Source of the DNA: a virus
Length of the DNA stretch: 29,544 nucleotides
IMG/VR virus record: IMGVR_UViG_3300043464_000913
Span: 1 to 29,544 of that record
Strand: one strand, 5' to 3'
Shown here: positions 3,374-24,229 of the stretch, in pieces
Position numbering within the stretch: position 1 is the first letter of the stretch
Layout: each line of letters starts with the position of its first letter
Made by a program: the position numbers and the translations under genes
Notes under the pieces: model-generated
The model's database searches: none
Told to the model about the DNA's origin: nothing
The model's input: the letters and a program-made list of their open reading frames with translations, nothing else

Positions 3374-3574
3374 ATGAAAACATTAAAAGAAATGTTCAAC
3401 TGGTTACTGTTGGAAGGAAAGATAGACAACTTAAAATTGCAATACCCAGACGTTGCTGACAAAATTGGGTTGTTTGCAAATACAAACCCCAAATATCTTT
3501 CTTGGGTTGCAAAACAATTGAAACCAGAAACTTCGCCTGAAGAACTAGAACAGTTGAGGGCAGGTTTTTACTGA
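3374..3574 (+). CDS. Small protein with N-terminal LxE tag, unknown function
   Basis: A 66-residue protein, MKTLKEMFNWLLLEGKID to QLRAGFY. I chose ATG 3374 over an in-frame TTG two codons earlier. The first 15 residues match the amphipathic N-terminal tag seen on many genes here, with LLE followed by Gly as a possible protease site. The remainder carries YPDVADKI and KYLSWVAKQL, a small helical pattern I have the impression of seeing in other large phages, but I cannot name a family. The gene runs against the tail operon: its stop overlaps the tape measure stop by 7 bases and its start is 18 bases from the divergent start of the 52-residue gene. No clear promoter or Shine-Dalgarno sequence is visible. 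Confidence 0.7.
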   Translation: MKTLKEMFNWLLLEGKIDNLKLQYPDVADKIGLFANTNPKYLSWVAKQLKPETSPEELEQLRAGFY

Positions 3575-6500
3575 GTTAAGTCTCCATGTGTTATTCTTGT
3601 GTTGTTAGGCCCAACTCTGCGAAGCAGAGCCAATTCAAATGCATCCAAACCATTGTTGTCGAACTTCACTGTGAAGTTCACATGGATGTTGAAGTTTCTG
3701 TTTTGAATCATGTACTCGCCATCAGCACCAAGACCAAGACTGTCTCCAAGCTTTCTCAGACCAGTCTCAATGTTGATAGGTGTCAAATTGTTGATGTTTG
3801 TTGTAAGTTCATTGGTTTTAGATATCATGTTGGTAACAACAGCGTTCACTCTTCCAAAGTGAATGCGCTCTATGTTTGTAATAAAACTAGAAACCGTAGC
3901 TTCCAAGGATGTTGAACCAATCAACTGTGTTGCGATCTGACTCATGCCAATCTGCAAAGAAGCAAGAACAGAACTCAAACCATTGAACTTTGTTTGAATT
4001 TCTGTGGAGCTGAGGGTGTTCGTGGAAATCAACTGAGTAACGGTTGACAGAATGCTGTTAAGGGCTTTTGCTCCAACATCGAACTTTCTTAGGTTTGAAA
4101 GAGGTATGTTGCTAAACACAGTGTTCATGTCTCGCATCAGTTGAGGAAAGGTGCTCTGGATTCTTGAGAAGAAATTGCTAACAAAATCAGTTAGTTGTGC
4201 AATAGTTTCAGCGTTTGATCCGGGAACGCCACCGCTGTTTTTTGACAATCCGGCAACGATTGTGGCGATTTGAGAGATGGTAGTAAACACTGGGCCGACA
4301 ATTGGTGCAAATGCTTCGATTGCTTTTAGTTGAGCAGGGTTCAACGCAGCCATACTTGTACTCAGAACAGTCAGGATGCCTGCAATCTTATCAAAAAGAT
4401 TAGATTTAGTCAGACCATCGAGCAAAGAACTCATATAAGTTCCAACAGCAGAAAGAACTTGGGTTTGGTTGCCATTCGCTGCAAGTTGCAAGATAGCAGA
4501 GCTGCCTGAACGAAGAGAGTTCATGAACTCTCCCAAACCACCAAGAATACGGACAAACACCAAACCAACTCTTGCTTGATCAGCCGTAAAACCTTGGCCA
4601 ACAATAGGAGAGGCCAAGAAGCCTCTGATCTCGTTCATCAAGATCGAAAGGTTGCTTGTCATGATTGAGATGAAAGAGCGAATTGATTCCAATCTCCATT
4701 CAACTCGTTGTCCCAACAAAGCTTGAATGTCAGACTGCTGCAATGCTTCTGTTGGCGGTTTCAAAGCATTAGCAAACTCAGCAACGGCTCCAATAACCGT
4801 TACAAGCAATTGTGCCGACTGAATCCGCTGTTCGCCGCCACCAAGTCCTTGAACGGCATTTGACAGTGAAGTAACAATCAACATCAGTTGATTGGTCAAG
4901 TTCGTAATTGTGTAATTTACAGAGGATAAGGTTTCTCTTTGCTCTTGCTCTCCATTCAAGAAGCTTAGAATTCCCGGTCTGGTTGCTGTAATCAGTTGAG
5001 CAACTGATGCCGCAAAAGATCCAATTCCTTTCATGATATCCACGAACACCCCAGCTTTTTTCACAAATTCAGCCAGCCCACCACTTGGACGGAATCTGTC
5101 AATAGACTCCATGATTTTAAGTCCTTCAGATGCCATCCCTCTAACGGTAAATGCAATTACAGCAAGACCAGCAGCCACGGCTGCTGCCCCAGCCAAACCA
5201 AAAGAAGCAACACCAATACCGATTGCGGCAGCTATTCCAACAACTGCCGCAGCAGACAAGAAGAAAGCTCCTGTTGCAGTCATGATCATAACGGTTTTTC
5301 CAATGTTGGCAAAAGGCACATCTTCAAATGCCCAAACTATGCCTCTAGCACCAATTGCCATCGCAGCACCAACAAGACCCACTACCAACAAACCACCAAG
5401 AATTCGCGGAGTCATTCCAGGGGCCAGGTTGATCGTAGACAAAAGTTTTACTGCCCCTGCTATTGCAACCATCGAGGTTGCTGTTGTGATCATTGCAAGA
5501 GAAGCAGTTGCAATAGAAGCTGGAGTGATCTTGTTTTCTTGGATGGCTTTTGCAAACCTAAAGATTGCATATAGCACTCCAACCATACCAACAACAATGA
5601 ATGCTGTGATTGCAACCATCTTCACCAGGGCTTGTCCCCAGTTTGCCTTGGAGTCTGTTGCTGCCTGAGCAGCTTGGTCAGCACTTTCAATAACACCAGC
5701 GATTGCTTGACCAGATCCACCACTGCTTGATGTTTGTGGAGCGTTTGACATGGCTCTGGAAGCGGTTGCTGCTTGACCCATGAATCTGTCTTTAACAGAC
5801 TCAACTGCGGTCCTGATTCCACCACCTCGTGCAAACTCAATCAAACCTTGTGTGAACATTGCAGCAAACGAAGTTGCAATGGCTCTGCCAATCATCCCAA
5901 CAAACGCTGGTCCTGCCAGAACTGCTGCGATTTCAAGAAGGTGAGTTCTTAGCCACGGCTCTGCTTTCTTCCAGATCTCTCCAAACAGTCCTTTAACAGC
6001 ACTCCAGAGAGATGGGCCAAATTCCTTAAGAGCATCAACAATTGGGCGAATCAGAGGTTCAAGAAAACCAAGACCGCCTTCAGCACTTGATAGATCTATA
6101 GATTTTCTTCCCGATATCAGATCGGTGATATATTCTATACCTTCTCGCAACCCTTTCATTGCGATTCTCAGCAAACCACCAGCAATCTGACTGATTGCCA
6201 TGAAAAACTTCCTGAAGCCATCAAGAACTCTCTGACCATTCTGCGAGTTGTTCTGGAACCAAGAGAAGAAGTTCTTCTTCAGGTTTTCTAAGAGTTTCGG
6301 CAATGCGGTCTGCGGGTCCGTTGTCATCGTTTTAAAGAACTCTCGGAATGCATCAGCAGCCCCACGAAACAACTGTCTGAACTTTCTTCGATCAAACAGA
6401 TCCGAAAGACCCTGGAACACGTCTTTAACTCCAGGGAACATGGCAACAAACGCTTTGCCTACTTTTATGCCCTCCCTATACGCAATCCTCAGATCAACTC

Positions 6501-8031
6501 TGAGTTCTCGCATCAGATGTCTGAACTCTTGGCTTCTCTGGATACCAACAGTGAAGCCCTGGATGAACCGATCAATGAAACCACCGCTACCTTGACTGCC
6601 GGACTTAACAAGTCGCTCAATGGAGTCAGCAAGCGCCTTCATGGCTTGAACCTGCGTCATCTGAGTCTTCTTGGCAGCATCAGCCTTCCTTGTCACTTGG
6701 TCATATGTCATTCCCTGGTTCTTCATAGAGAAAGCCAGGTCCAGGGCAGAGTCATCCAATCCAGTTTGTTGAGCCAACAAAGCTCTTTCTTGGCGAGTCA
6801 TGTTCTCAACAGAACGACCTGCTGCAAAGAAGGACTTTCTAAGCATCTCAACCCTCTCTGCTGGGTTCTGTGCCTTCATCATTTCCAAAGCATCAACGTT
6901 TAAGTTGAATGCCTGTGACAGATGTGCAGCCCCTTGTGCGGCATCTTCGAAGTTGTCATACTTCTCAATCACACCCATGACCTTAGAAACTTCAATACCA
7001 AGTCTTCTGAAGTAAACAACAGCCTGACCGATCTCCTTTGTGGATATTCCTCCAAAGTGTTTGAAATCAGCCATCAGGGTGGCCATGTCTCTGGATATCT
7101 CTTTCGCTGACCCGGCAGCACCATTGAAAGCTTTGCTAAGTTGTAGAGAGTAGTTTGCGATCTCTCGCAACTCATCTGTCAAAGCTGTCTGAAGAGCATA
7201 AGCTCTTGTCGCCACTGCTTTCTGACCTTCTTCTGTTAAACCCAGCCCTTTGTAGTAGGCACCTATAGCCTCAGAGTTTTTAACAAACTGACCAGCAAGA
7301 GCAGCAAAGAGAGGTCCGAGGTTGTGAGCATATTCTTGCATGAACTTCAAACGTTCGGCAAGGTTGCCAAAAACACGATAGACAGAAAGACCTGTTTGAG
7401 CCAGTTGTCCTTTAAGGTTTCTGGCCATTGAGATGATTGCTTGACCTGATGTGGCATGAAGAGCACCAAACTCTTTACGAATGTCTTCCAAAGCTTGTCT
7501 TAAACCAGTATCACCTCCACCAGCATCAGCCATGTTGATCAACCCGGTAAGCATCTTGAATGGTATGGCTATGATTGAAGCAGCAAGGTTGCCAAGTGTT
7601 TCAACCACACCAAATCCAAGGTTCTTGATGGTGTGGAACATGTTTGCTGTCATTCTCAAACCCTGAACAAAACCATCAATAGAAGAAGCAGCCACGGAGA
7701 AGCGTTTCACCTTCTTGGTCATGTCTTCCATGCCTCTGCCGGTTTCATCTTCTCTCTTGACAGCTTCTTTCAATGCAGAGTTCAGCTTGTCAAACACATC
7801 TTGGTTGGTTGTTCCAAGACCTCTCGTGGCATCCGAAGCTCCTGCCACTGCTTGCGAGGCATTCTGAATGTCTGTTGCAACGTCCTTGAAGTTTGCAGAA
7901 CGCAACGTGTTGACCATATCTCTTGTCAGAGATGCTTGATCTTTCGTCAACTTGGTGCTTTCTTCCAAAAGCTTGTTCTGGGCAGAAAGAAGTTGATTCA
8001 ACTGAGCTTGTAGGTCGAGATTGGTCGCCAT
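3568..8031 (-). CDS. Tail tape measure protein
   Basis: Sets tail length during assembly: the tube polymerises around it on the baseplate, and it is later released toward the host envelope. It is 1488 residues from the ATG at 8031 (an in-frame TTG at 8043 would add four); neither has a good Shine-Dalgarno. The first 110 residues are a coiled-coil-like stretch rich in Gln, Leu and Lys. The middle is long and helical with frequent Phe/Met. Residues about 700-970 contain several hydrophobic helices, for example near AAVLAGPAFVGMIG and VAITAFIVVGMVGVLYAIF, typical of tape measure proteins that may enter a membrane. The C-terminal third is Ser/Thr/Asn-rich and helical. I see no lysozyme or peptidase motif. 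Size, composition and location downstream of tube and chaperone genes make the call firm. Confidence 0.92.
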   Translation of the reverse strand: MATNLDLQAQLNQLLSAQNKLLEESTKLTKDQASLTRDMVNTLRSANFKDVATDIQNASQAVAGASDATRGLGTTNQDVFDKLNSALKEAVKREDETGRGMEDMTKKVKRFSVAASSIDGFVQGLRMTANMFHTIKNLGFGVVETLGNLAASIIAIPFKMLTGLINMADAGGGDTGLRQALEDIRKEFGALHATSGQAIISMARNLKGQLAQTGLSVYRVFGNLAERLKFMQEYAHNLGPLFAALAGQFVKNSEAIGAYYKGLGLTEEGQKAVATRAYALQTALTDELREIANYSLQLSKAFNGAAGSAKEISRDMATLMADFKHFGGISTKEIGQAVVYFRRLGIEVSKVMGVIEKYDNFEDAAQGAAHLSQAFNLNVDALEMMKAQNPAERVEMLRKSFFAAGRSVENMTRQERALLAQQTGLDDSALDLAFSMKNQGMTYDQVTRKADAAKKTQMTQVQAMKALADSIERLVKSGSQGSGGFIDRFIQGFTVGIQRSQEFRHLMRELRVDLRIAYREGIKVGKAFVAMFPGVKDVFQGLSDLFDRRKFRQLFRGAADAFREFFKTMTTDPQTALPKLLENLKKNFFSWFQNNSQNGQRVLDGFRKFFMAISQIAGGLLRIAMKGLREGIEYITDLISGRKSIDLSSAEGGLGFLEPLIRPIVDALKEFGPSLWSAVKGLFGEIWKKAEPWLRTHLLEIAAVLAGPAFVGMIGRAIATSFAAMFTQGLIEFARGGGIRTAVESVKDRFMGQAATASRAMSNAPQTSSSGGSGQAIAGVIESADQAAQAATDSKANWGQALVKMVAITAFIVVGMVGVLYAIFRFAKAIQENKITPASIATASLAMITTATSMVAIAGAVKLLSTINLAPGMTPRILGGLLVVGLVGAAMAIGARGIVWAFEDVPFANIGKTVMIMTATGAFFLSAAAVVGIAAAIGIGVASFGLAGAAAVAAGLAVIAFTVRGMASEGLKIMESIDRFRPSGGLAEFVKKAGVFVDIMKGIGSFAASVAQLITATRPGILSFLNGEQEQRETLSSVNYTITNLTNQLMLIVTSLSNAVQGLGGGEQRIQSAQLLVTVIGAVAEFANALKPPTEALQQSDIQALLGQRVEWRLESIRSFISIMTSNLSILMNEIRGFLASPIVGQGFTADQARVGLVFVRILGGLGEFMNSLRSGSSAILQLAANGNQTQVLSAVGTYMSSLLDGLTKSNLFDKIAGILTVLSTSMAALNPAQLKAIEAFAPIVGPVFTTISQIATIVAGLSKNSGGVPGSNAETIAQLTDFVSNFFSRIQSTFPQLMRDMNTVFSNIPLSNLRKFDVGAKALNSILSTVTQLISTNTLSSTEIQTKFNGLSSVLASLQIGMSQIATQLIGSTSLEATVSSFITNIERIHFGRVNAVVTNMISKTNELTTNINNLTPINIETGLRKLGDSLGLGADGEYMIQNRNFNIHVNFTVKFDNNGLDAFELALLRRVGPNNTRITHGDLTQ

Positions 8032-8073
8032 CTGTTGTTTCAACTGATAATTACACCAAGATCGGAAGTTCGC

Positions 8074-8340
8074 ATGAGCAATTACAAACTCTCAGCAACA
8101 GGAAAACTTTTCTTTGCATCCCTTGTCGCTTATCTGGGCGGCGCAAAATCAATCATCAAACTAAAAGCCACACCTGAACAAGTGAAGGCAATCTCTGATG
8201 CTGTGATGGCCTCAAAAGAGTTTCAGGATGAAGTTAAGCGTGAGGGTGCAACCATTGAATCAGTCATTGAAAAGATGAGGTTGAAAAACCTCACCGCCGC
8301 AGAATTCAAAAAGATCACAGGAAAACCCTGGCCTTTGTGA
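8074..8340 (+). CDS. Small conserved-looking phage protein, unknown function
   Basis: An 88-residue protein, MSNYKLSATGKLFFASL to ITGKPWPL. The ATG at 8074 is preferred to the longer frame at 8035 because GGAAG lies 5 bases before it and the longer version would run into the divergent tape measure start. It has a hydrophobic N-terminal helix (FFASLVAYLGG), a basic strand-like stretch (IIKLKATPEQ), then helices with EFQDEVKREGATIESVIEKM. It looks like a compact domain rather than noise, and codon use matches its neighbours, but I cannot name a family. It opens the plus-strand island ending at 11131 and lies head-to-head with the tape measure gene with 42 bases between starts. Confidence 0.78.
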   Translation: MSNYKLSATGKLFFASLVAYLGGAKSIIKLKATPEQVKAISDAVMASKEFQDEVKREGATIESVIEKMRLKNLTAAEFKKITGKPWPL

Positions 8341-8359: not shown

Positions 8360-9265
8360 ATGAAAATCAAAGCAAAAGAGTTGTTTGGCTTAATTGCCGA
8401 AGCAACAAAACAACACTTGTTGGAAGCTGATATAACAAAAGTCGATCCCATGTGGATTGGGACTTATGCTTTTGTTCAAGCTTACAACCAAGCTCTTGCT
8501 GCGGGGCTGTTTCCAAGAAACCAAAAGCTTGGAGTTGAGTTCTCTCTTACAGACAATGGATTTCGCAATGGAGTTCTGTTGATCTCAGCATATGACAGAC
8601 CCACACCAAGGTATTTTAAAAGTGGTCATGGCCATGACTTGCTTCATGGTTTGACTCAGAACTCACAACCTCACTTTGGAACATTTCGTGGAGAAGAAGC
8701 ACAATCCACAAACAACAAGTCCTCTTTCAAAAAGAAACTCTTCAATCTTGCCTTTAAAGAAATCAGAGATAAATTTGGCATTGATCTCTTCAAGAGATTC
8801 CCAGAGGTTTCAATGAACAAGTCATTAACCCAAGAGGAACTCCACAAGATTCAAATTGAAGCAATCAAGTTTCTTAGAGAAGAAGACTACGATGCTTACG
8901 AGTTGTTCAACAAACACACAGCACGAACAAACTATTTCACAAGAATAACATCAAAGGGTTCTAGAAGAGACAACCCAACCCATGCTTACGAAGAGGAAAT
9001 GGGGAACATCGTGAGTGATGCTTTGGTGCCCTATGTTTCTGGTTCCCAGCCAATACCACCTGATCTTTTTGATTCTCTGATGAAGAGCCTGCAAAACTTT
9101 GAGGAACCACAAGACTTTAGAACTTACGACCATCCATCCAACGAACAAACCAAGCAAAAGTGGCTGACACACTTTCAGAAAGTTCTCCCAGAGTTCTTCC
9201 AACTTTACAATGCCTCTCTTGAAAGACTGAAAAGAACCGGGTTCGGTAGAGATCAAAAAATATAA
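8360..9265 (+). CDS. HDxxH protein, paralogue 1, with N-terminal targeting-like tag
   Basis: A 301-residue protein of no family I recognise. Residues 1-23 form the shared N-terminal tag with LIAE followed by Ala (residues 11-15), an excellent match to a T4-type prohead protease site. The body is homologous to the 314-residue gene at 10187: shared blocks are GTYAFVxAYNQ, GLFPRNQ, GHDLLHGLTQNSQPHFGTF (H92, D93, H96, H105), NPTHAxEEExGNxVSD (H208, E211-213) and HPSNE. The clustered His, Asp and Glu conserved in both copies suggest a metal site, perhaps hydrolytic. HDxxH recalls the Coq4 zinc motif, but the Coq4 spacing to Glu is not met, so I do not assign it. It starts 19 bases after the previous stop with no clear ribosome binding site. 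Confidence 0.85.
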   Translation: MKIKAKELFGLIAEATKQHLLEADITKVDPMWIGTYAFVQAYNQALAAGLFPRNQKLGVEFSLTDNGFRNGVLLISAYDRPTPRYFKSGHGHDLLHGLTQNSQPHFGTFRGEEAQSTNNKSSFKKKLFNLAFKEIRDKFGIDLFKRFPEVSMNKSLTQEELHKIQIEAIKFLREEDYDAYELFNKHTARTNYFTRITSKGSRRDNPTHAYEEEMGNIVSDALVPYVSGSQPIPPDLFDSLMKSLQNFEEPQDFRTYDHPSNEQTKQKWLTHFQKVLPEFFQLYNASLERLKRTGFGRDQKI

Positions 9266-9268
9266 ATA
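9261..9268 (+). promoter_or_regulatory. T4-type late promoter candidate (TATAAATA)
   Basis: The exact octamer TATAAATA, the T4 late-promoter core read by the gp55 sigma factor, begins in the last codons of the 301-residue gene and runs into the 25-base gap before the ATG at 9291. The core ends 22 bases before that ATG, compatible with a short leader. By base composition about two exact copies are expected by chance on both strands of this window, so position rather than sequence alone supports it. No -35 element is needed for this promoter class. Confidence 0.45.
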
Positions 9269-9290
9269 CCTATTTAGGTTTTGGTGAAAA

Positions 9291-9644
9291 ATGAAAGCAA
9301 CGAAAACACAACTTGAAGCTATGATTCGTGAAAGTGTCCAAAAAGCTCTTGAAGGTTTGGACTATGGAGACAAGGATTGGTTGTCTACAAGACAAGACGA
9401 CGATGCAATCAGACAGAACCTCATGAGAAAAGGATCTGGGTCACCAATCTTTGGTCAAATGATTCAAGCAGCACAAGCAGCACAGAAGAAGATTCAAACT
9501 TCAAACAACCAGGAGAGAATTGCTGTGGCTGCACGCCTGAAAACAGAACTAGAGCAGTTGTCACAAGCACCTGAGAGTGGTGCTGTTATCATGAAGGCAA
9601 GATTGATCACTGGGAAACTAATTGCTCTTGCAAAGCAGGGATGA
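9291..9644 (+). CDS. Small tagged helical protein, unknown function
   Basis: A 117-residue protein opening MKATKTQLEAMIRESVQKAL, a clear version of the shared amphipathic N-terminal tag with IRE then Ser as a potential protease site. Residues 24-50 are polar and charged; the rest is Ala/Gln/Lys-rich helix (QAAQAAQKKIQTSNNQER) ending in a second helix. No enzymatic motif is visible. It follows the TATAAATA element and precedes the Nudix gene by 6 bases, so the two are probably co-translated. It could be a small internal head protein, since those are also short, helical and tagged, but this rests on the N-terminus only. Confidence 0.8.
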   Translation: MKATKTQLEAMIRESVQKALEGLDYGDKDWLSTRQDDDAIRQNLMRKGSGSPIFGQMIQAAQAAQKKIQTSNNQERIAVAARLKTELEQLSQAPESGAVIMKARLITGKLIALAKQG

Positions 9645-9650
9645 AAAGCC

Positions 9651-10181
9651 ATGTTTACAAAACTGGCTCAAAAAATCCTGAAGCTGGTCAACCCAGACGG
9701 CTATCATAAACGAATTGCGGTTAAGAGATTCCAGTTGCCCAACGGTCTTGAGGAGACTTTCTTCATTGATCAAGACAAAGACTCTGTTCAGGTGTTTTGC
9801 ATCACCAAAGAAGCAGATGTTGTCTTGGTTCAACAATACAGAGCAGGACCAGAAGAACTCATGCTTGAGCTTCCTGGTGGTGGCATGGAGGAGGGCGAAG
9901 AACCTCTCGAAGCAGGCATCAGAGAGCTTCAGGAGGAGACGGGATACGTTGGTGATGCAACATACCTTGGCAGTCTGTCATACTCCCCCTATTCGTCTGG
10001 TAGACGCCACTGTGTTCTTGTGATCAACGCAGTTAGAGTGTCAAACCAGAAGCTAGACCCAAATGAGTTTGTGACAATGCTCAAGATGCCACTTAGGGAC
10101 TTTAGATCCAAGATCAAGTCTGGTGAGATCCGAGGTTTTGATCTTGCTTACATGGGCCTTGACTACATTGGAAAGCTCTAG
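9651..10181 (+). CDS. Nudix hydrolase, ADP-ribose pyrophosphatase-like
   Basis: A 176-residue Nudix hydrolase. The complete Nudix box is present: G77, E83, R91, E92, L93, E95, E96, G98 and Tyr99 in the canonical Gx5Ex7REUxEExGU spacing. Upstream, VQQYRAG and ELPGGG are characteristic of the ADP-ribose/ADP-sugar pyrophosphatase branch, where Tyr-Arg and Pro-Gly-Gly contact substrate. The box glutamates bind Mg2+. The likely reaction is cleavage of a nucleoside diphosphate linked to another group; ADP-ribose is a reasonable guess, relevant to NAD turnover in infected cells, but the substrate is not provable from sequence. The ATG lies 6 bases after the previous stop, with AGGGATGAAAAG ahead as ribosome binding region. 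Unlike its neighbours it lacks an obvious N-terminal tag. Confidence 0.93.
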   Translation: MFTKLAQKILKLVNPDGYHKRIAVKRFQLPNGLEETFFIDQDKDSVQVFCITKEADVVLVQQYRAGPEELMLELPGGGMEEGEEPLEAGIRELQEETGYVGDATYLGSLSYSPYSSGRRHCVLVINAVRVSNQKLDPNEFVTMLKMPLRDFRSKIKSGEIRGFDLAYMGLDYIGKL

Positions 10182-10186
10182 AAACA

Positions 10187-11131
10187 ATGAAAGTAACAAT
10201 CAAACAACTCAGTGAGATGATCACCAGAGCCATTCTACAGGAAGTCGATGCAAGAAAGATTCCCAGATGGTGGTTTGGAACTTATGCTTTTGTTCTTGCC
10301 TACAACCAAGGACTGAAAGAAGGGTTGTTTCCCAGAAACCAACCCATTGAAATAGAGTTTACAGTTGGACAAAAAAACATCTGGGCTAATGGTATGTTGA
10401 CAATAGACATAACAAGCCCCCGCCCAGACAGAGACTTCTTTACGGGCGGTCCAGGTCATGACTTACTACACGGTTTGACTCAGAACTCCCAGCCTCACTT
10501 TGGAACATTTCCTAAAAACGACTTGTCTGTTTCAACCGGCAACAAATCCGACTACAGGTATCGAAACATCAAACGTGCTTTTGATTCCATCAAGAAAGAC
10601 TTTGGAGTTGATCTGACCACTGTTTTTGGTAAGAATTCCTATACTGGAGAAATAGAAGACTTCACCAAGAAGATAGAGAGCTACCTGCTGAAAAAAACCA
10701 GAGAAGCACAGGGGGAAGACTTGGAATCTGGCGACACTCACAAGTGGGAGAAAATCTATTACAGGTTTGATAGTTTTACAAGACCGTCAAACTACTTCTC
10801 CAACAATCACATCAAGAAGGGTGGAAAAAACAACCCTACTCATGCAATTGAAGAAGAAATAGGAAATGTTGTTAGCGATCAACTCGCAAACTTTTTGGCT
10901 AATTCTGAACCAGTTGGCAAAGAGATGGTTGCATTCATTCTTGATCAGGTTGATAGGTGGGAAGAGGCAAGTGAGTTTGGCTTTTATGACAACCCATCAA
11001 ATGAGAAAACCATTCAAAGATGGAAACAGCACATGAGGAATGTGCTTCCTCGTTTTGTGGCGATCTATAATCAAAAGCTTGCAATGCTTGAAAAAACCAA
11101 CTTGGGCTCTGTATCAAGTGTCAACGTTTAG
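10187..11131 (+). CDS. HDxxH protein, paralogue 2, with N-terminal targeting-like tag
   Basis: A 314-residue paralogue of the gene at 8360, starting 5 bases after the Nudix stop. It opens MKVTIKQLSEMITRAILQEV, a diverged version of the tag with LQE as possible site. The shared core is GTYAFVLAYNQG, GLFPRNQ, HDLLHGLTQNSQPHFGTF (H91, D92, H95, H104), NPTHAIEEEIGNVVSDQL and DNPSNE; the middle (residues about 110-200) differs strongly between the copies and is longer here. Conservation concentrated in His/Asp/Glu blocks points to a retained activity rather than a decaying duplicate. The last 11 bases overlap the convergent thymidine kinase gene. Function unknown; a metal-dependent enzyme is the best guess. 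Confidence 0.87.
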   Translation: MKVTIKQLSEMITRAILQEVDARKIPRWWFGTYAFVLAYNQGLKEGLFPRNQPIEIEFTVGQKNIWANGMLTIDITSPRPDRDFFTGGPGHDLLHGLTQNSQPHFGTFPKNDLSVSTGNKSDYRYRNIKRAFDSIKKDFGVDLTTVFGKNSYTGEIEDFTKKIESYLLKKTREAQGEDLESGDTHKWEKIYYRFDSFTRPSNYFSNNHIKKGGKNNPTHAIEEEIGNVVSDQLANFLANSEPVGKEMVAFILDQVDRWEEASEFGFYDNPSNEKTIQRWKQHMRNVLPRFVAIYNQKLAMLEKTNLGSVSSVNV

Positions 11132-11690
11132 GAGTTGGACTCCAACAGCCCAAGCAACGTGGCTCATAGACTTCACTACCACCCACCGCAACCGCAACAC
11201 CACTGGCAGCATATGGTTTCTCTCTAAATGTCCTGTTTGCTTCCTTGTGACAGACTTTACAGATAGAAGTAAGTTTCGTTACATTGTCAGCCAAGGCTAG
11301 AAGGTCTGGTGTTGAACCAAATGGCTCTCCATAGGAATTCAGATCAAGACATGTGCAGATAACGCGAACATTAGCTCTGATCAAACCTGAAACAATAGGG
11401 CTGATCCAAGAAGAGTCAAAAAACTGTGCTTCGTCAAAAGCCACAACCTCGGTTTCATCATCAATCACAATCCTGTCACCCTCTGAGATTGCAAATGGAA
11501 CTACGCCAGTAGCAACTTCAAGGTCTGTCTTGTTGTGAGATGTGATTCTGTCAACACCATAACGGAAATCCATTGATGGTTTGAATACCTGAACCTTCTG
11601 ATTGGCAATCACACATCTCTTAACTCTACGAATCAACTCCTCGGTTTTTCCGGCAAACATTGGCCCACAGATCACTTCTAGTTTTGACAT
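11121..11690 (-). CDS. tdk: Thymidine kinase (type II)
   Basis: Phosphorylates thymidine to dTMP with ATP, a salvage step feeding dTTP for phage replication. The 189 residues show the Walker A loop GPMFAGKT (9-16), the DEAQFF motif (86-91) that carries the Walker B and catalytic Glu region, and two cysteine pairs (C144/C147 and C179/C182) forming the structural zinc site of type II enzymes. Length is normal for the family (about 190). The start MSKLEVICGPMFAGK is fixed by the P-loop position; no strong Shine-Dalgarno is seen. It is the last gene of a minus-strand run and overlaps the end of the convergent 314-residue gene by 11 bases. Confidence 0.97.
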   Translation of the reverse strand: MSKLEVICGPMFAGKTEELIRRVKRCVIANQKVQVFKPSMDFRYGVDRITSHNKTDLEVATGVVPFAISEGDRIVIDDETEVVAFDEAQFFDSSWISPIVSGLIRANVRVICTCLDLNSYGEPFGSTPDLLALADNVTKLTSICKVCHKEANRTFREKPYAASGVAVAVGGSEVYEPRCLGCWSPTPKR

Positions 11691-11747: not shown

Positions 11748-12287
11748 TCACGGCTTCCATTCTTGTTTGAGAGCTTTGTAAGGTGGGAGTTTGTAATCTG
11801 CAAGAGGTCGCTTTAGCAAAAGCATCTTGTGATTTGGAATGAATGCAACTTGGTGATTGGCAAGCACTACCAAGTGAGCATTCTCGTTGTCTTTGTACCA
11901 ATCAACCGTACAAATGTAACGCTCAATCTCAATCCACTTGTTCTTGTTTGGAAACCAAGATGTTCGGGTGTTGAAAGCGCCCATGAGAACTTCATGAGTT
12001 GAAACAGTTACATGAAAATCTGGACATGCCTTGTAAAAACAAAGATCCCCAAGAGAAAGCTCTGTCACAAGCTTGCTTGTGCCAACCGAAAGAGCATGTG
12101 CTGGGATGTAATCAAACAAGGCGCCGTTCTTCAGCAGGATCTTGAATGTCAGATAGTGGCCCTTGTACGAAGAAACAGCAAAGACTGTGCAGGGCTCTGT
12201 TTGTCCTTCAAATGACTCATCCATGTCATACAAGAACTTTGTTTGAACAAAAGCGGAGAATGCTGGAATATCAACGTGGACGTTCAT
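11748..12287 (-). CDS. Unknown protein upstream of thymidine kinase
   Basis: A 179-residue protein starting MNVHVDIPAFSAFVQTKF and ending KALKQEWKP. It is rich in alternating hydrophobic residues and aromatics (FKILLKNGALFDYIPAHAL, HLVVLANHQVAFIPNHKM), suggesting mainly beta structure. I see no catalytic motif, signal peptide or membrane helix. It starts 12 bases after the stop of the 188-residue gene (also a beta-like unknown), so the two form a translationally close pair and may act together. Its stop codon lies in the loop of a small 5-bp inverted repeat (11743-11756). Codon use resembles the neighbours. Role unknown. Confidence 0.85.
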   Translation of the reverse strand: MNVHVDIPAFSAFVQTKFLYDMDESFEGQTEPCTVFAVSSYKGHYLTFKILLKNGALFDYIPAHALSVGTSKLVTELSLGDLCFYKACPDFHVTVSTHEVLMGAFNTRTSWFPNKNKWIEIERYICTVDWYKDNENAHLVVLANHQVAFIPNHKMLLLKRPLADYKLPPYKALKQEWKP

Positions 12288-12299
12288 GTGTTGCTTTTC

Positions 12300-12866
12300 T
12301 CAGAATGGATTCTTGGCAGGATGCCACAGTTTGTTTTTATTGTCAAACTCTGCAACGATAGCGAACAGGATGTTACCCTTGGAAATATGAAAGCTGGTTT
12401 GCCGACAGATCAGGCCAACTCCCTCACGTCGCGTTCCATCAGCTTCCTCAGCAATGATGTACTTGACTTCGAACTTGTCTTCCTCAAAGATTGACAGATT
12501 GATATAACGCTCCATGAACCAACCTGCCTCTGTGATGGAATGACAATCGCCTTCCGAGATTGCATCGCTGTAAACGACACGAGTTCGTGGAAGAACCTCG
12601 AATGCATATCCGAACTCGTAAGCAACCCGCTCATGAAGGTACTGAGACATCCAAGCAAAGCCAATCCGCTTGTTCTTGCGAAGGGTTCCAGAGCCATGTG
12701 TCTCAATCCACTCTTCGGCAGGCATCATGCGATTGTTCTTGCGAAGGGTTCCAAAGCCATGTGTCTCAATCCACTCTTCGGCAGGCATCATGCGATACCA
12801 AAAACGGTTTGCAACAGCGTTTGGCAGGTTTCCGGTCAACTTTGTTGGGACAACTTTGGTTTCCAT
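12300..12866 (-). CDS. Unknown protein with an internal 21-residue tandem duplication
   Basis: A protein of 188 residues from ATG 12866 (METKVVPTKLTG); an in-frame TTG at 12917 would add 17 residues. Neither has a good ribosome binding site, so the start is uncertain. Near the N-terminus, RMMPAEEWIETHG followed by GTLRKN appears twice in tandem (21-residue unit), encoded by two nearly identical 63-base units, so the second copy is a recent insertion that kept the frame. The remainder contains FGYAFEVLPRTRVVYSD and ISEGDCHSITEAGWFMERYINL. I do not recognise the family. It stands 12 bases before the 179-residue gene. Confidence 0.83.
   Translation of the reverse strand: METKVVPTKLTGNLPNAVANRFWYRMMPAEEWIETHGFGTLRKNNRMMPAEEWIETHGSGTLRKNKRIGFAWMSQYLHERVAYEFGYAFEVLPRTRVVYSDAISEGDCHSITEAGWFMERYINLSIFEEDKFEVKYIIAEEADGTRREGVGLICRQTSFHISKGNILFAIVAEFDNKNKLWHPAKNPF
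12670..12795. repeat. Direct tandem duplication, two 63-base units
   Basis: Units 12670-12732 and 12733-12795 differ by a single internal substitution (at 12691 versus 12754, changing Ser to Phe) plus the junction base. The period is a multiple of three, so the reading frame of the surrounding gene is kept and 21 residues are duplicated. Near identity indicates a recent event by slippage or unequal recombination, or an assembly artefact. Confidence 0.95.
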
Positions 12867-12934
12867 GTCACTGACATTACCAAAAACACGGATGGAGTCA
12901 AGAGGTAATCGCAACAAAAACGGTTTTGTGGTTT

Positions 12935-14155: not shown

Positions 14156-14590
14156 TCATCCTTTGCTGTTTTCCAAAGACAGCAAAACAATCATGTTCAT
14201 CAGCTTGCGTGGCTGTTGGAATGGAAAACCTGGAAGATTCATCATTGTTCTTGCAGCAATCATTGCTTCATGCTTTGTGACAGGAATGCCACGAAGTATC
14301 TTGGTGGTGATATTCGTTTGTGGAATTGCCTCAAGAGTGGTGTTCAAAAACACCTTGACATTTGGTGCCACTGCATAAGCAGGTTCGTTGTATTCATCGC
14401 TTGTGTTTTTTTGCTGGATTGCCTTGAGCCTCTTCTGCTTTTCCACTTCATCAGGATGAAGCTTGCTTTTACGATACTTGTCAATGTGTCGTGTTTTTGG
14501 CCGATAAAGCTTGGTTGTTTTTTCTGTCATCTCCAACAGAGTTGATGCGACAACTCTGGCAATCCATTCAGAAAGATCTTGTTTTTTCAT
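14156..14590 (-). CDS. Small tagged basic protein, unknown function
   Basis: 144 residues from ATG 14590, MKKQDLSEWIARVVASTLLEM, chosen over a longer frame from 14692 because AAAGGG lies just upstream and the start is one base after the preceding stop. The N-terminus is the shared amphipathic tag with LLE. A very basic segment follows (KLYRPKTRHIDKYRKSKL), then PNVKVFLNTTLEAIPQTNIT and a helical C-terminus (KHEAMIAARTMMNLPGFPF). I cannot assign a family. It is translationally linked to the kinase-fold gene upstream and stands 92 bases before the gp26-like gene. A basic, tagged small protein could bind DNA inside the head, but that is a guess. Confidence 0.8.
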   Translation of the reverse strand: MKKQDLSEWIARVVASTLLEMTEKTTKLYRPKTRHIDKYRKSKLHPDEVEKQKRLKAIQQKNTSDEYNEPAYAVAPNVKVFLNTTLEAIPQTNITTKILRGIPVTKHEAMIAARTMMNLPGFPFQQPRKLMNMIVLLSLENSKG

Positions 14591-14591
14591 T

Positions 14592-15248
14592 TTACCCTTT
14601 GCTTCCTTTTGCAGTATAACCAGAATCAACAACCACTGGTAATCCCCTTGCCAGCCCCCAAGAATCAATCTTGACAAGATCTCCAGGTTCATAGTTGCAG
14701 TTTTTGATCAAGTTAACAACACGTCTGAAAAAGGGATTTGTGTAGTGCTTTTCAAATGCCAACTGATATTGTCTTAGTTCTCCAGTTGAAGCATCGGAGG
14801 CTGTTCTTGGGAAAGCACCACCAAGTGCAAAGATGAACTCATTCCACGGAACACCAGTTAGACTCTTGAAAGTCACTCTTGTCATTGGGGCTGCTTCTTC
14901 AGCAACCAGCCAGTATCCCTGGTTGTTGGACTCATAGATCTCAGGGAAAATATTGATGTTTTCAGGAGTTTTGCACACAGAGATCTCTGCAACGTTTTGT
15001 TGTAAACCACTATGGCTGTTGGCCACTTTGAGAACTTTTGCATTTCCAAGACTATAAACAGTTCTACCTTGCTTTTGTCCTATCTTGGCTGAACCAAGCG
15101 TTTGGGAACAGTAACCTATAATTTGTTGCAACTGGCTTAGAGATCTAAGTCTATCCATGCTGAATGTGTGCTCAATGGGTTGGTTTGACGTTTCTTCAAG
15201 AAGGTAAGTCTCCAGAACTGTTTCGATATATGTTCTTAACTGGTTCAT
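14592..15248 (-). CDS. Kinase-fold protein, diverged paralogue, N-terminally tagged
   Basis: 218 residues from ATG 15248 (MNQLRTYIETVLETYLLEE); an in-frame GTG at 15269 is possible but the ATG restores the shared tag. The body follows a minimal protein-kinase-like order: a loop with GRTVYSLGNAKVLKVA carrying the VLK lysine (K74), a glutamate helix (VAEI, E89), a hinge-like GYWLVAEEAA (111-120), TGVPWNEF, then GDLVKIDSWG and VVVDSG in place of DFG (D208). The second copy at 25462 shares these blocks in the same order with better-kept residues. The glycine loop is poor and no HRD motif is seen, so this copy may bind nucleotide weakly or be a pseudokinase. Confidence 0.82.
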   Translation of the reverse strand: MNQLRTYIETVLETYLLEETSNQPIEHTFSMDRLRSLSQLQQIIGYCSQTLGSAKIGQKQGRTVYSLGNAKVLKVANSHSGLQQNVAEISVCKTPENINIFPEIYESNNQGYWLVAEEAAPMTRVTFKSLTGVPWNEFIFALGGAFPRTASDASTGELRQYQLAFEKHYTNPFFRRVVNLIKNCNYEPGDLVKIDSWGLARGLPVVVDSGYTAKGSKG

Positions 15249-15264
15249 CAAAATTAAATAGGCG

Positions 15265-15293
15265 TTCACCCCTTCGGCAAAACCGTTTATACT
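15265..15293 (+). promoter_or_regulatory. Candidate sigma70-type promoter for the zinc-finger/HNH gene
   Basis: TTCACC (15265-15270) and TATACT (15288-15293) are separated by exactly 17 bases and lie just before the plus-strand ATG at 15303. The -10 matches the consensus at 5 of 6 and the -35 at 4 of 6. Transcription would start about 4 bases before the ATG, giving a nearly leaderless message, consistent with the lack of a Shine-Dalgarno sequence. Confidence 0.4.
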
Positions 15294-15302
15294 GTCTGTG
15301 AT

Positions 15303-16223
15303 ATGTCAATCAAAAAAAAACCATTTGTCAACTTGTTGCAAGAAGTCAGAGAGCTTGAAAAAAACGAAGTAATTGATCAACTGTCAGAAGCCACTGACAT
15401 GAACAACGGAATTCGTTGCCCGGTTGTTGGTTGCTCATGCAAAACCGTCTTCAAACGGTGGGGAGACATGCGTGGTCACTTTCTTGACAACACAACTCAC
15501 AAAAAAGACTTTTTTCGCATATACATGGAGAAAACCAATGAACCATTTTGCGACTTGAGAGGTGCAGGGTTCAACCATGGAGTAAACTCTCTGATGCTTG
15601 CGTTGATTCGTCAACCAACCTCAGTAGAAGAGTTCACCAACGAAGGTAACAAGAAAACATCAGCAAAAAACACAGAACCAGCGGCCACTACGAAGCCAAA
15701 GAAGGCCCGACCGATCTTAGAGCAACAGATTCTAGGGTATACAGTTCAAGAGCCGATAGAAGCCCCGCCAGAGGCCACTGTGACACTGTTTAAGCAAGTG
15801 CAAGAGGAAGCGCAGACAAGAACCACTTCAAACAGGAGTTCATTCAGTCGTGTATCGGAGATGATTCGAGAGAGTGATGAGATCAACAAGGTTTGGAGAG
15901 GAAAGGTTCTTGAAGAGTATGTTGACATGTTTCATGGGATTCCTCCTTGTTTTCACTGTAGGAGTGAAGAAGGAAAACAGATTCATCACCAGAATCCCTT
16001 GTTTCATGAAATTGTCCTTATCAGCTTGAACAAGCTTGGAACCACTGCTGAAAGGGTTATTGAAGAACGAGAAAAAGGAGATGAAGGACCACTGAAAGCA
16101 GTCCTTCAAGATGTGTTTGCTTACCACATGAAACCTGGAAGGGTTTGTGCGGTTCCTTATTGTCAAGGATGCAACCAAGATGCAGAGATTAAGAGAAGAA
16201 AAGGAAGAAGGAATGCGGAGTGA
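15303..16223 (+). CDS. Zinc-finger protein with C-terminal HNH-like nuclease module
   Basis: 306 residues. Near the N-terminus, C39-x4-C44 followed by H59 and H66 in a pattern like a C2H2 zinc finger (CPVVGCSCKTVF, MRGHF). A disordered linker rich in Lys, Thr, Pro and Glu spans about 110-165. The C-terminal part holds CFHC (216-219), IHHQNP (H228, H229), H235, H275 and CQGCN (287-291), the order expected for an HNH-type ββα-metal nuclease with zinc-binding cysteine pairs. The gene is on the strand opposite to the surrounding tail operon, as free-standing homing endonucleases often are. Family assignment is by motif only; a DNA-binding structural or regulatory protein is possible. Confidence 0.85.
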   Translation: MSIKKKPFVNLLQEVRELEKNEVIDQLSEATDMNNGIRCPVVGCSCKTVFKRWGDMRGHFLDNTTHKKDFFRIYMEKTNEPFCDLRGAGFNHGVNSLMLALIRQPTSVEEFTNEGNKKTSAKNTEPAATTKPKKARPILEQQILGYTVQEPIEAPPEATVTLFKQVQEEAQTRTTSNRSSFSRVSEMIRESDEINKVWRGKVLEEYVDMFHGIPPCFHCRSEEGKQIHHQNPLFHEIVLISLNKLGTTAERVIEEREKGDEGPLKAVLQDVFAYHMKPGRVCAVPYCQGCNQDAEIKRRKGRRNAE

Positions 16224-16775: not shown

Positions 16776-17171
16776 TTATAGCTTGTTTGCGATGGCTTCA
16801 AGGTTTGCTACCATCACTGAAAGCGAGCCATCTGGTATGTGAGAGAATTGAATTCGTGTAGAAATTCTCTTGGTTAGGTTTTGAACCTGACCAATCAAAA
16901 GTTTTCTATCATGAACCAACGCCTCATCCATTGTTCCGTATTGGCTGAGTAGGCTGTCAGCTTCCTCAACGTTCTTGATGGCTCTGGCAATCACTTCTGA
17001 GTCAGCACCAGCTTTCTGGGCTGATTTAAACTTGACACAGACTCCCATTAACAAAGATTCAACTTCTTGGATGTCCTGATCAGAGATCTGACTAGAAGAA
17101 TCCGAGTTGACTCCTGTTAGGCTTTCCCTGACAGCTTGTTCAATTATTCTTGCCAGATCTTCTCGCTGCAT
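16776..17171 (-). CDS. Small tagged helical protein, unknown function
   Basis: 131 residues from ATG 17171, MQREDLARIIEQAVRESL, chosen over a longer frame at 17189 because it starts 2 bases after the upstream stop and restores the shared tag (VRE then Ser, IIE then Gln). The rest is nearly all helix: DIQEVESLLMGVCVKFKSA, then EVIARAIKNVEEADSLLSQY and LLIGQVQNLTKRISTRI. No enzymatic motif is visible. It is translationally coupled to the 226-residue gene and precedes the tail tube gene by 31 bases. Perhaps a small virion-associated protein. Confidence 0.8.
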   Translation of the reverse strand: MQREDLARIIEQAVRESLTGVNSDSSSQISDQDIQEVESLLMGVCVKFKSAQKAGADSEVIARAIKNVEEADSLLSQYGTMDEALVHDRKLLIGQVQNLTKRISTRIQFSHIPDGSLSVMVANLEAIANKL

Positions 17172-17173
17172 CT

Positions 17174-17854
17174 TCAGACCCACTCCCAACCAAGTATATC
17201 AAGAATGCTCGATGCCAAACCTTGTGCTCTGTCTTCAATCTTCTCTTCGCTTCTTCCATAACGAACATGCCAAGAGTTGAGGGTTTTGTTAAGATAAGAG
17301 TGAGGGTTTTCGATCTCTTCATCATCAACTGTTTCTGGTAGCTCTTCTGGAGATGGAGCGTTCGAAAGAGCCGTGAGAACCTTATGCATACCAACACCAG
17401 TGTTCATGTCTGGGTTGCCTACGCCTGCCACTTCAAGTGCGTATGCAAAGGCAAGATAGTCACCACCTTTAAGGTCCATGTCCCAACCACCTTGTTCATC
17501 CAAAGCTGCTTGGAGTTCCTCTGGCGATGGAACATTGCCATAGGTAGAAGTACCACGCTTGGTCACATCACCGTCTGACAAGCCTTCTTGAGCGTAACCT
17601 GATGCTTCTTTCAAAGCCATTCTCAGGGCTTTGCGAACACCTTCGGCAAGTTGTGATCGAGTGATCTTCTTTGCCTTCTTGATTTCCTTGTTGGCTTCCT
17701 TCTTGGAGTTTTCATCCTTCAGGTGTTTTTTACCAACACGGTCAAAGTTATCTGACTTGTCTGTTGACTTTCCTTTACCTTCAACAAGGGCAGACTCAAT
17801 ACCCTTTTTTACGGCTTCGGCAATAAAACTTTCAAATGTTTTTATGTTGTTCAT
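17174..17854 (-). CDS. Protein with T4-like capsid-targeting N-terminus, unknown function
   Basis: 226 residues starting MNNIKTFESFIAEAVKKG. Residues 5-14 (KTFESFIAEA) closely match the T4 internal-protein capsid-targeting sequence MKTYQEFIAEA, including the IAE/A cleavage site. A very Lys-rich segment follows (30-64), then a second copy of the helix motif, ITRSQLAEGVRKALRMALKEA (64-84, counted as a motif, not a start). The C-terminal half has two short repeats around NxPSPEEL (108-114 and 166-172), each followed by an acidic stretch. AGG is well spaced before the ATG. The gene sits 21 bases after the first sheath gene. A packaged internal head protein is the best inference. Confidence 0.85.
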   Translation of the reverse strand: MNNIKTFESFIAEAVKKGIESALVEGKGKSTDKSDNFDRVGKKHLKDENSKKEANKEIKKAKKITRSQLAEGVRKALRMALKEASGYAQEGLSDGDVTKRGTSTYGNVPSPEELQAALDEQGGWDMDLKGGDYLAFAYALEVAGVGNPDMNTGVGMHKVLTALSNAPSPEELPETVDDEEIENPHSYLNKTLNSWHVRYGRSEEKIEDRAQGLASSILDILGWEWV

Positions 17855-17875: not shown

Positions 17876-20863
17876 TTAGCCCTGGATGAAGTTCCCACGA
17901 TTTGTAAGCGTGAAATCAATAGACAAAAACTCAAGTGTCTTGGTTGGAACAAGGAAGATCTTTCCTCTGATGATCTTGTTCTCGATGTCTGCTTGGGTTG
18001 TTGTTGTTGTGTCAATGACAACCTTGAAGTTGTCAATTCCACGTTTATCTTGCACGTCTTTAAAGATTGGGTTTACCAACTGGGAGAACCTTGCAAGAGT
18101 TGCTTCCTTGTTCTGATCAAACAGAATCCTGTTTGCAACTTGACGAACTTGACGACGCAGCGAGATAAGAAGTCTACGAACGTTGACTCGATCCAATGAA
18201 GATTGACGAGCAAGAACAGTCTTCTGACCCCAGACAACTGGACCCGTGCTGCCAGCAAAGCTGACAATTGGGTTGATGTTCACAGAATACAAAGCGTCCA
18301 TGTTTGGCTTTGTCAAACGAACAACTGGTTCGTTTGTGGTGTCCAATGCGCCTCTTGTGAAACCGGCTGGAGCGTTCCAAGGGAATGCAACAGCGTCGTT
18401 CTTACTGAAAGCTCCAAGCACAGCAACCGTAGGAGGAACTCTGACAACAGAGCGGTTGGTTGCATCTCTCAAAGTCACATCAGGGAAGTATGCTGCACCG
18501 AAACTGCTGTTAACTCCACGGCTAGCGAAGTCAGTTGCAGTAAAGCCAACACTGATGTTTTGAGTGTTAGTCGTAACAAGCAAGTTGTTAACGTCTCTCT
18601 CTTCAATGTCAAACAAGAACAAAGCGTCGAAACGATTCTCGGTTGTACGCAATGCTGTGTCGGTAACAAAACGGTGGCGAATGCCTGGGATTGCCAGAAG
18701 TTGAATGTCAATTTCTGACGTGTCACCCATCAAAGCCAGTGCTTTGGTGTAAGCCGAGACTGTTGGACCAGAAGAAAGACCTCTATCGGTGTAGTTCATC
18801 TCTTCCACAATGGCTTTGTTGGTCAACTGTGCTGTATCAGCATTGAAGATCCTTGTGCCATCGAATCCACCTTGAAGGTAAACAGTAAACTTTGCTACTG
18901 CTCTTGCCGAAGGATCTGTGAGATCTTCCACCTTGAAAGCTCTGGTGCGAGCAACAGAGTCAAGCGGAATAACTCCACTCCTAACATAAGTCCAAGCATC
19001 CAAGTTTGTTACGTCAGCCAACTCGCTTGTTGAGTTGTAAACAACTTCAATGTTTTCAAGCGAGAAGTAGTTGTTGCAGAATCTATCCGCATCAACAATT
19101 CCGTTTTGTGCTGTATCAACAGCACCTTCATTGGCAGAAACAATTGGGTTCATCCACTCGGTGTGATATGAACCAAAGTATTTCGACAAAGACTTGATTG
19201 TGTCGTTTGGAACATAGCTTGAGTTTGGATCTGTTGCAGATTCCTGACGCTCAAACTGAACACCCCAATACAAAGACTTGTCAGTCGAGGTTGTAGTAGA
19301 TGTTCCTCTGGTCAAACTAAGTCTGAATGGAACAGGAGGCTGAACCATTCTTTGTGCAGGATTGGTGATAGACCAAGTGTTGCTATCCGAGAATGAAGGC
19401 ATTGGAGCAGAACCAGATGTCATCAAGTGAGGGAAACCACGGCATCCCAGTGGAAGAGCAGACTGTGGCGTTTCACCATTCAAAACATCGTCTGACAGAA
19501 CAACGCGAATATATCTGCTACGAACAGGGTAGTTGCCTGTTGTGGTGAGCTTCTGCTTGCCAGTGGTTGCATCAAAGTTGAAAAACACTCTCGTGTCACC
19601 AATGATGTTTCCAATGAACCTTGGGTTTGATGGATCAAGAGACAAACCTCTCCACTGCTCCAAGACAACCTTGTTGTTGTCATTGTCGTTGAAGTCTCTA
19701 ACCAACAAGTCGAACGTACCAAACTCGGTGGTGTCTGTGTTGGATGGCTGGATGTTCTCGATGCTGATCTTCAGCTTTGTGTTTGGTTCTTCACCATCAC
19801 TAAGAGCATAAACCTGGAACAAGTTGACAGGGCGACCACCGAACTTCTGAGAAGTAAACCAAGGTGTTTTTGCGGTTTGGAATCTGTCTTCAAAACCTTC
19901 AAAGTTTGGAGCATATGCACTACCAGAGTTCCAAGCCTGACTACCAGTGAGCAAGAATGCAACCTTCTCACGAGGTCCAGGTGAAACTGCGGAAGCAGAG
20001 GTTGTCAGAACACCCGCACCAGTAACAACTGCCAAAGCAGGATGAATGTCATATTGCGAGTAAAGAACATATCCAGCATTCTCCAACTTCAAAGGATCTT
20101 TGTTGAAGATCTTTCCAAAGTAGTTTGGAGCACTTACGTCAAAGGACGCAGTTAGAACGTTTGTGTAAGAAGAGTCGGCTCCGTTCCAGCCGTTCAAAAA
20201 CATGACAAACTCTTGCAAACCGCTACCAAGATAGACGGAACCCGTTACAGCACCAGTTCTCGTGGCAGATGAAGAAAGTGTGCTTGGTGCTGTGCTTGGT
20301 GCTGTGGAGCTTGAAAGAGTCAAAACAACTCCCGAAGCTGCCATCAACACGCCACGAAGAACCATCTGACCAGAAGAGGAAAGACCAGCCCCAGAAAAGA
20401 TTTCTGAGTTTGTTGATTGAGACATGTAAGTTGCAAGGAAGTAAGACCTTCCAAGCTCTCCACCAGCAACCGCATAGCGATTGTTGCCAAGGTTGCCAGA
20501 AAGAGTGCTTTGTGGTTGACGGTCACCCGCTACAAAACCAGCATACTGCACTTTGCCCTTGTTGTTCCCGGTTGATGTTCTCTGAGTACCATCACCAACA
20601 CCCAAGACTCTAAGAAACGTAACTGCCTGAGCATTACGAAGCCACTCAGCAACAGCCAGAGGTGCATTCTTGTAAATGCTTGATGGAGCACCAAACTTTA
20701 CGTTGAAGTCGCTTGTGGTTGGTAGTGTAAGTGGAACAAAGGCTGGCCCTTTAGGTGATGTTCCGATGATACCCGCTGGGATACCTACTGGTTCAATGGA
20801 AGTTGGCCCAGTAAGATCTATCTCTCTTGTGGTAACTCCTGCGCTTGCAAATCCTTGTGCCAT
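17876..20863 (-). CDS. Tail sheath protein, copy 1 (gp18-like, 995 residues)
   Basis: Forms the contractile sheath around the tail tube. The N-terminus REIDLTGPTSIEPVGIPAG, IGTSPKGPAFVPLTLP and DFNVKFG are sheath hallmarks. The C-terminal part (about 800-995) has the strongly conserved order FPWNAPAGFTRGALD, YSVNINPIVSFAG, VWGQKTVL, SLDRVNVRRLLISLRRQVR and FLVPTKTLEFLSIDFTLTN. At 995 residues it is much longer than T4 gp18 (659), with the extra length in the middle, probably surface domains. GGAAGG at good spacing precedes the ATG. The gene upstream in transcription order is a diverged second sheath, so the tail may use both. Confidence 0.95.
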   Translation of the reverse strand: MAQGFASAGVTTREIDLTGPTSIEPVGIPAGIIGTSPKGPAFVPLTLPTTSDFNVKFGAPSSIYKNAPLAVAEWLRNAQAVTFLRVLGVGDGTQRTSTGNNKGKVQYAGFVAGDRQPQSTLSGNLGNNRYAVAGGELGRSYFLATYMSQSTNSEIFSGAGLSSSGQMVLRGVLMAASGVVLTLSSSTAPSTAPSTLSSSATRTGAVTGSVYLGSGLQEFVMFLNGWNGADSSYTNVLTASFDVSAPNYFGKIFNKDPLKLENAGYVLYSQYDIHPALAVVTGAGVLTTSASAVSPGPREKVAFLLTGSQAWNSGSAYAPNFEGFEDRFQTAKTPWFTSQKFGGRPVNLFQVYALSDGEEPNTKLKISIENIQPSNTDTTEFGTFDLLVRDFNDNDNNKVVLEQWRGLSLDPSNPRFIGNIIGDTRVFFNFDATTGKQKLTTTGNYPVRSRYIRVVLSDDVLNGETPQSALPLGCRGFPHLMTSGSAPMPSFSDSNTWSITNPAQRMVQPPVPFRLSLTRGTSTTTSTDKSLYWGVQFERQESATDPNSSYVPNDTIKSLSKYFGSYHTEWMNPIVSANEGAVDTAQNGIVDADRFCNNYFSLENIEVVYNSTSELADVTNLDAWTYVRSGVIPLDSVARTRAFKVEDLTDPSARAVAKFTVYLQGGFDGTRIFNADTAQLTNKAIVEEMNYTDRGLSSGPTVSAYTKALALMGDTSEIDIQLLAIPGIRHRFVTDTALRTTENRFDALFLFDIEERDVNNLLVTTNTQNISVGFTATDFASRGVNSSFGAAYFPDVTLRDATNRSVVRVPPTVAVLGAFSKNDAVAFPWNAPAGFTRGALDTTNEPVVRLTKPNMDALYSVNINPIVSFAGSTGPVVWGQKTVLARQSSLDRVNVRRLLISLRRQVRQVANRILFDQNKEATLARFSQLVNPIFKDVQDKRGIDNFKVVIDTTTTTQADIENKIIRGKIFLVPTKTLEFLSIDFTLTNRGNFIQG

Positions 20864-24110: not shown

Positions 24111-24229
24111 TTCTGTTCCTCGTAGATTGCAGGATGCTGTTGGTTGGTCAGCAATCAACTACCAATTTTGTCTTGGATAATTATGGTCCTATAGAGGCGA
24201 TTCCCTGGAAGACTCTTCTTCCGCTATAT

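Follow-up and report, generated by a model that had tools for sequence, protein, structure and literature searches.

Introduction

In phage T4, propeptides of 10-19 residues bring unrelated internal proteins into the head, where the protease gp21 cleaves them after an L/I-x-E site (PMC9026906). One such protein, IPI, is injected and blocks a restriction enzyme, and the targeting peptide alone is conserved among proteins of this kind (PMC3012670). A review has proposed the propeptide route as a general means of loading varied proteins in T4-like phages (PMC9026906). T4-like phages are common, and outside the classical T4 group head-carried proteins are hard to pick out by sequence.

Here, we analysed 29,544 nt of a virus (IMG/VR virus record IMGVR_UViG_3300043464_000913, positions 1 to 29,544; hereafter the window), which holds a cassette encoding two paralogous HDxxH proteins (HD301 and HD314), a small basic protein (S117) and a Nudix hydrolase. 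Like T4 IPI, IPII, IPIII and Alt (PMC9026906, PMC3012670), otherwise unrelated proteins of this phage and its relatives begin with a short peptide carrying an L/I-x-E site. A gp21-type protease is likewise present (here in relatives), and the tagged proteins are basic, variable and non-core. Unlike the T4 peptide, however, the tag is diverged (K-Q-L-x-x-M-I-x-E type), the bodies that follow it are unrelated to T4 proteins and packaging is a prediction. Flavobacterium phage immuto (MW353176, 101-119 kb) offers a second comparison, since unrelated genes with tag-like N-termini (e.g. MKKSQLRQIIKEAL) lie beside a phrog_3704 gene there. The immuto island, unlike our cassette, has no HD homologue and precedes the terminase gene instead of adjoining the tape measure; packaging is a prediction in both. 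Our favoured reading, which we hold with moderate confidence, is that this T4-like phage carries the HD pair inside its head as accessory proteins, targeted by the tag, clipped by a gp21-type protease, packaged and ejected into the host.

Results and discussion

The four cassette genes (301, 117, 176 and 314 aa; Table 1) lie where a preliminary description had placed them, on the strand opposite to the tail operon. Indeed, the sheath, hub and tape-measure genes of the window are all on the minus strand, and the cassette on the plus strand converges on the thymidine kinase (TK) gene. A second gene opposite to the tail operon (15303-16223, +; 306 aa) occupies the same place in two related records, G002 and G812, and had no match in Pfam or PHROG searches.

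Table 1. Features of the cassette and its borders, in window coordinates
Feature	Position	Strand	Remark
Tape-measure gene, left neighbour of the cassette	3568-8043	-	phrog_167
Conserved 88-aa gene, left border	8074-8340	+	95% identity in G001, 80% in G812
HD301, tagged HDxxH paralogue 1, 301 aa	8360-9265	+	
HD301 tag MKIKAKELFGLIAEATKQHLLE	8360-8425	+	possible gp21-type cleavage sites I12-A-E14 and L20-L-E22
HD301 block GHDLLHGLTQNSQPHFGTF, residues 91-109	8630-8686	+	
HD301 block NPTHAYEEEMGNIVSD, residues 205-220	8972-9019	+	
S117, tagged small basic protein, 117 aa	9291-9644	+	pI 9.7
Nudix hydrolase, untagged, 176 aa	9651-10181	+	PF00293, 4.9e-15
HD314, tagged HDxxH paralogue 2, 314 aa	10187-11131	+	
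HD314 tag MKVTIKQLSEMITRAILQE	10187-10243	+	possible gp21-type cleavage site L17-Q-E19
HD314 block GHDLLHGLTQNSQPHFGTF, residues 90-108	10454-10510	+	
Thymidine kinase, right border, outside the cassette	11121-11690	-	PF00265, 1.5e-41

The alignment of HD301 with HD314 runs from end to end, N-termini included, with about 41-42% identity (E 3e-73). The shared blocks and divergent middles reported earlier are real: the middle part of the alignment is gapped and dissimilar, the block GHDLLHGLTQNSQPHFGTF is identical at 19/19 residues, and NPTHA[YI]EEE[MI]GN[IV]VSD and D[HN]PSNE were both found. The 19-residue block is also identical in the HD314 orthologue of a related phage, G001 (contig 3300016665_000348), and no identical run of this length arose in 20,000 alignment-column shuffles. 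Since the G001 orthologue encodes the block with different codons at 13 of 19 positions, the block is under selection at the protein level; on the same ground gene conversion was ruled out as its origin, and these codons indicate that the amino acids are constrained beyond what gene conversion alone would give. Conserved histidines number five of ten (positions 92, 96, 105, 208 and 271), about as expected from 42% overall identity, and four of the five fall within the two conserved blocks. The histidine signal is therefore their concentration in two blocks, not their count.

Searches of PHROGs, Pfam, NCBIfam and PADLOC gave no credible match for either HD protein, as the earlier label of an unknown family implied. 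Credible relatives were likewise absent from 50,697 phage records, none was found in plasmids, and a PDB sequence search returned noise only. The pattern scan of IMG/VR yielded a single relative, that on the G001 contig, and, of eight GTDB pattern matches, none scored below E 1 against the profile. When 793 bacterial genomes of two phyla (395 and 398) were searched by profile, two matches with E above 0.003 per genome came up, which is chance level. We also took as noise the Aeromonas phage proteins (E 0.8) and phrog_11812 (E 0.025). By these searches the HD pair forms an orphan family, with nothing outside this phage and G001 in the databases covered; distant relatives may have escaped the viral and genome scans, because these relied on short exact motifs or a three-sequence profile.

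Gene content at the site differs among three phages. The order in the window is 88-aa gene, HD301, S117, Nudix, HD314 and TK. G001 has the 88-aa gene, a GIY-YIG-like ORF, a tagged 118-residue protein, S117, Nudix and HD314, so that HD301 is absent and the GIY-YIG-like ORF and the 118-residue protein take its place; the HD314 orthologue runs into the contig end (76% identity over 108 aa). G812 has the 88-aa gene, an S117-like gene (90 aa) and Nudix, followed on the opposite strand by a phrog_4301 protein and a tag-bearing 224-aa protein, and then TK; neither HD gene was found in this record. S117 is 66% identical in G001 and 27% in G812, and the Nudix hydrolase 84% and 77%. The HD genes are thus variable cargo, which bears out the proposed accessory cassette. 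As G812 keeps Nudix in its place without any HD gene, the Nudix gene is the stable partner and is independent of the HD genes.

The 224-aa protein at the HD314 site (L053:9070-9744, minus strand; phage contig 3300002925_000021) matches DUF3293 just above the cut-off of that model and S-AdoMet_lyase below its own. SAM lyases are anti-restriction enzymes in some phages, so this sub-threshold match is a hint, no more, that the site holds counter-defence cargo. Three GIY-YIG-like ORFs, recognised by eye (YIGSAKEFKSRW type), lie at G001:1605-2471, G002:1443-2324 and G002:15736-16704, all on the minus strand, one of these sites being the place of HD301 in the window; G002 was put with the same phage as G001 by sample and similarity only. 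Such ORFs may drive the exchange of cargo.

One kind of helix, M-K-x-T-x-K-Q-L-x-x-M-I-x-E, with [LI]xE sites, opens HD301, HD314 and S117 as well as unrelated proteins in related phages. The preliminary description was right about a tag on the small protein; it missed that both HD proteins carry the tag too, as do head-region proteins in related phages. In one register, HD301 (MKIKAKELFGLIAEA), HD314 (MKVTIKQLSEMITRAILQE), S117 (MKATKTQLEAMIRES) and the 118-residue protein of G001 (MRTTLKELRHLINES) all have Leu8 and Ile12, and most have Glu14; HD314 has I12 without E14. An L/I-x-E site falls within about the first 10-22 residues of the three cassette proteins (IAE14 and LLE22 in HD301, LQE19 in HD314, IRE14 in S117), this being a short motif that is common in amphipathic helices and weak on its own. 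Once the tag is stripped off, only HD301 and HD314 resemble each other and the other bodies are unrelated. Across three phages, ten of the 19 invariant residues of S117 sit in its first 27; the tag is its best-conserved part, which agrees with the tag being what is constrained. Tagged proteins are basic and the untagged Nudix hydrolase is acidic.

A strict form of the tag pattern matched 8 of 141 ORFs, where shuffles gave 0.05; because it was derived from these same ORFs and counts homologues, the other sets weigh more. With a looser pattern, G812 gave 16 matches, where shuffling gave 5.0 on average and 12 at most; some of the 16 are homologues of proteins encountered earlier, and a few are clearly chance. 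The looser pattern also matched 10 of 22 immuto genes in the stretch before the terminase (0.88 expected), compared with 4/73 in the replication half (2.5 expected, no significant enrichment) and 1/23 in the tail region (0.8 expected). As it was fixed after the immuto N-termini had been viewed, the p-value is optimistic and the contrast among regions within that genome is the safer reading. Tag-like N-termini also occur in the tail region of the window (genes 14156-14692, 16776-17189 and 17174-17854), and the gene between protease and scaffold is tagged in both G002 and G812. Upstream of the genes no shared promoter-like motif stood out, and a T4 late promoter, TATAAATA, before S117 (9261) was dismissed as chance, as the window has a single copy and both G001 and G002 have none.

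By its sequence and its analogy with T4, the tag is probably a diverged T4-like capsid-targeting sequence that loads the HD proteins into the head. The head genes fall outside the window, and the evidence for head machinery comes from relatives, where G002 has a gp21-type protease (Peptidase_S77, PF03420, 2.7e-27; G812 orthologue 83%) and a T4-type portal is present (Portal_T4, PF07230, 1.3e-64). The likely MCP propeptide, proposed by analogy with gp23, ends QLIQE. No virion proteomics turned up for this phage or its relatives; the packaging of the HD proteins, their cleavage and their ejection are inferences, as are a bound metal and a target. The targeting helix of ~14-22 residues, common to S117 and unrelated proteins of related phages, would pull the HD proteins into the prohead core, and the phage's gp21-type protease would remove it after an L/I-x-E site. 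The mature proteins would be packaged alongside the genome and reach the host together with the DNA. Their action there would probably be immediate, preceding phage transcription, and would serve host takeover or counter-defence. The active or binding site, possibly one for a metal, would most likely be built from the two invariant blocks, HDLLHGLTQNSQPHFGTF and NPTHAxEEExGNxVSD.

AlphaFold2 models built from three sequences reached pLDDT 54 for HD301 and 65 for HD314 (pTM 0.58). The HD314 model is mostly helical, with helix 27-44, a small sheet (55-74; strands 55-59, 65-67 and 70-74) directly before helix 89-95 bearing HDLLH, and helix 218-238 carrying most of THAxEEExGNxVSD; the stretch after HDLLH and the loop preceding THAxEEE fall below pLDDT 50. 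Fold searches with these low-pLDDT models gave no Foldseek match below E 0.5 and VIA-align Z scores of at most 5.0, to helical bundles, a null result that says little because the models are poor. In HD-domain phosphohydrolases a conserved His precedes HD (motif H...HD...D), and COQ4 has HDxxHx11E, with Glu 12 residues after the second His. We rejected the former, as no conserved His lies upstream of the HD pair at 92-93, and the latter, as residue 108 is Thr, not Glu, in all three sequences; neither family gave a Pfam match. A metal centre in an enzyme is plausible, and these models neither support nor refute it.

Could the tag have another purpose? It may be a helix that virion proteins (of neck, tail and baseplate) use generally for assembly or oligomerisation; the HD proteins would then be structural accessories that sit near the tail and are not ejected. 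The cassette does adjoin the tape-measure gene, and tag-like N-termini are also found on proteins between the sheath, tube and hub genes. However, in immuto the tagged genes are concentrated in the stretch before the terminase, not among the tail genes, one tagged gene sits between protease and scaffold, and the content of the site is variable, unlike that of structural genes; we thus regard an assembly helix as unlikely. We give still less credence to the proposal of the preliminary description, namely that the HD proteins are cytoplasmic metalloenzymes acting on nucleotides with the Nudix hydrolase, the helix having some other role. Nudix and thymidine kinase genes are indeed adjacent, HDxxH is present and the conserved blocks are rich in His and Glu. 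The Nudix assignment itself is sound, as the 176-aa protein has a full Nudix domain (PF00293, 56.2 bits against a cut-off of 21.1), its nearest NCBIfam model being NudE (6.5e-15, below its cut-off) and its scores lying under all NCBIfam equivalog cut-offs. Yet this protein is unrelated to the HD proteins, its gene persists in G812 where they are absent, the HD proteins match no nucleotide enzyme family and a cytoplasmic role would need no tag, so that the nucleotide role drawn from the Nudix neighbour has no independent support.

A further alternative concerns chemistry only and is compatible with head cargo: an HD protein could be a zincin-like hydrolase, with zinc held by HDxxH and H105, injected as a protease. 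The predicted order of helix, strands and HDLLH helix in HD314 recalls minimal zincins, which have a similar helix-strands-motif-helix order. Against this, the HD proteins carry HDxxH in place of the zincin zinc motif HExxH, with Asp replacing the catalytic Glu; a Pfam search with the isolated segment finds no peptidase even at E 10, Foldseek lends no support and residues 100-121 are below pLDDT 50. We therefore consider a zincin improbable. Returning to the internal-head reading, the broader idea that the HD proteins are a new head-delivered metalloenzyme family, which would modify or cleave some target in the host as infection begins, is a tentative one that we consider rather unlikely.

Should the tag prove to be a diverged capsid-targeting sequence, it would provide a simple rule for listing injected proteins, some of them likely counter-defence factors, and would find injected effectors outside the classical T4 group from sequence. 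It would further indicate when and where the HD family acts, making a search for function practical.

Several other features of the window were noted. Two large sheath-like genes stand in tandem (17876-20863 and 21045-24158, both -; 33% mutual identity) and both are retained in G002 and G812. The 205-aa protein at 12300-12917 (-) has an internal repeat, RMMPAEEWIETHGFGTLRKNN, in two copies, and its G002 orthologue apparently has one. The phrog_4301 proteins form a paralogous family (14592-15269 and 25462-26166, both -; several copies in G001, one in G002 and two in G812) that had no match in Pfam or PDB searches. They combine tag-like N-termini with kinase-like landmarks (GxGxxRxV[YF], VLK, an invariant Glu and DxG), and by these features are possibly head-delivered and kinase-like. 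Finally, a phrog_3704 protein, labelled 'ferredoxin', adjoins tagged genes both in the window (11748-12287, -) and in immuto (112531-113175).
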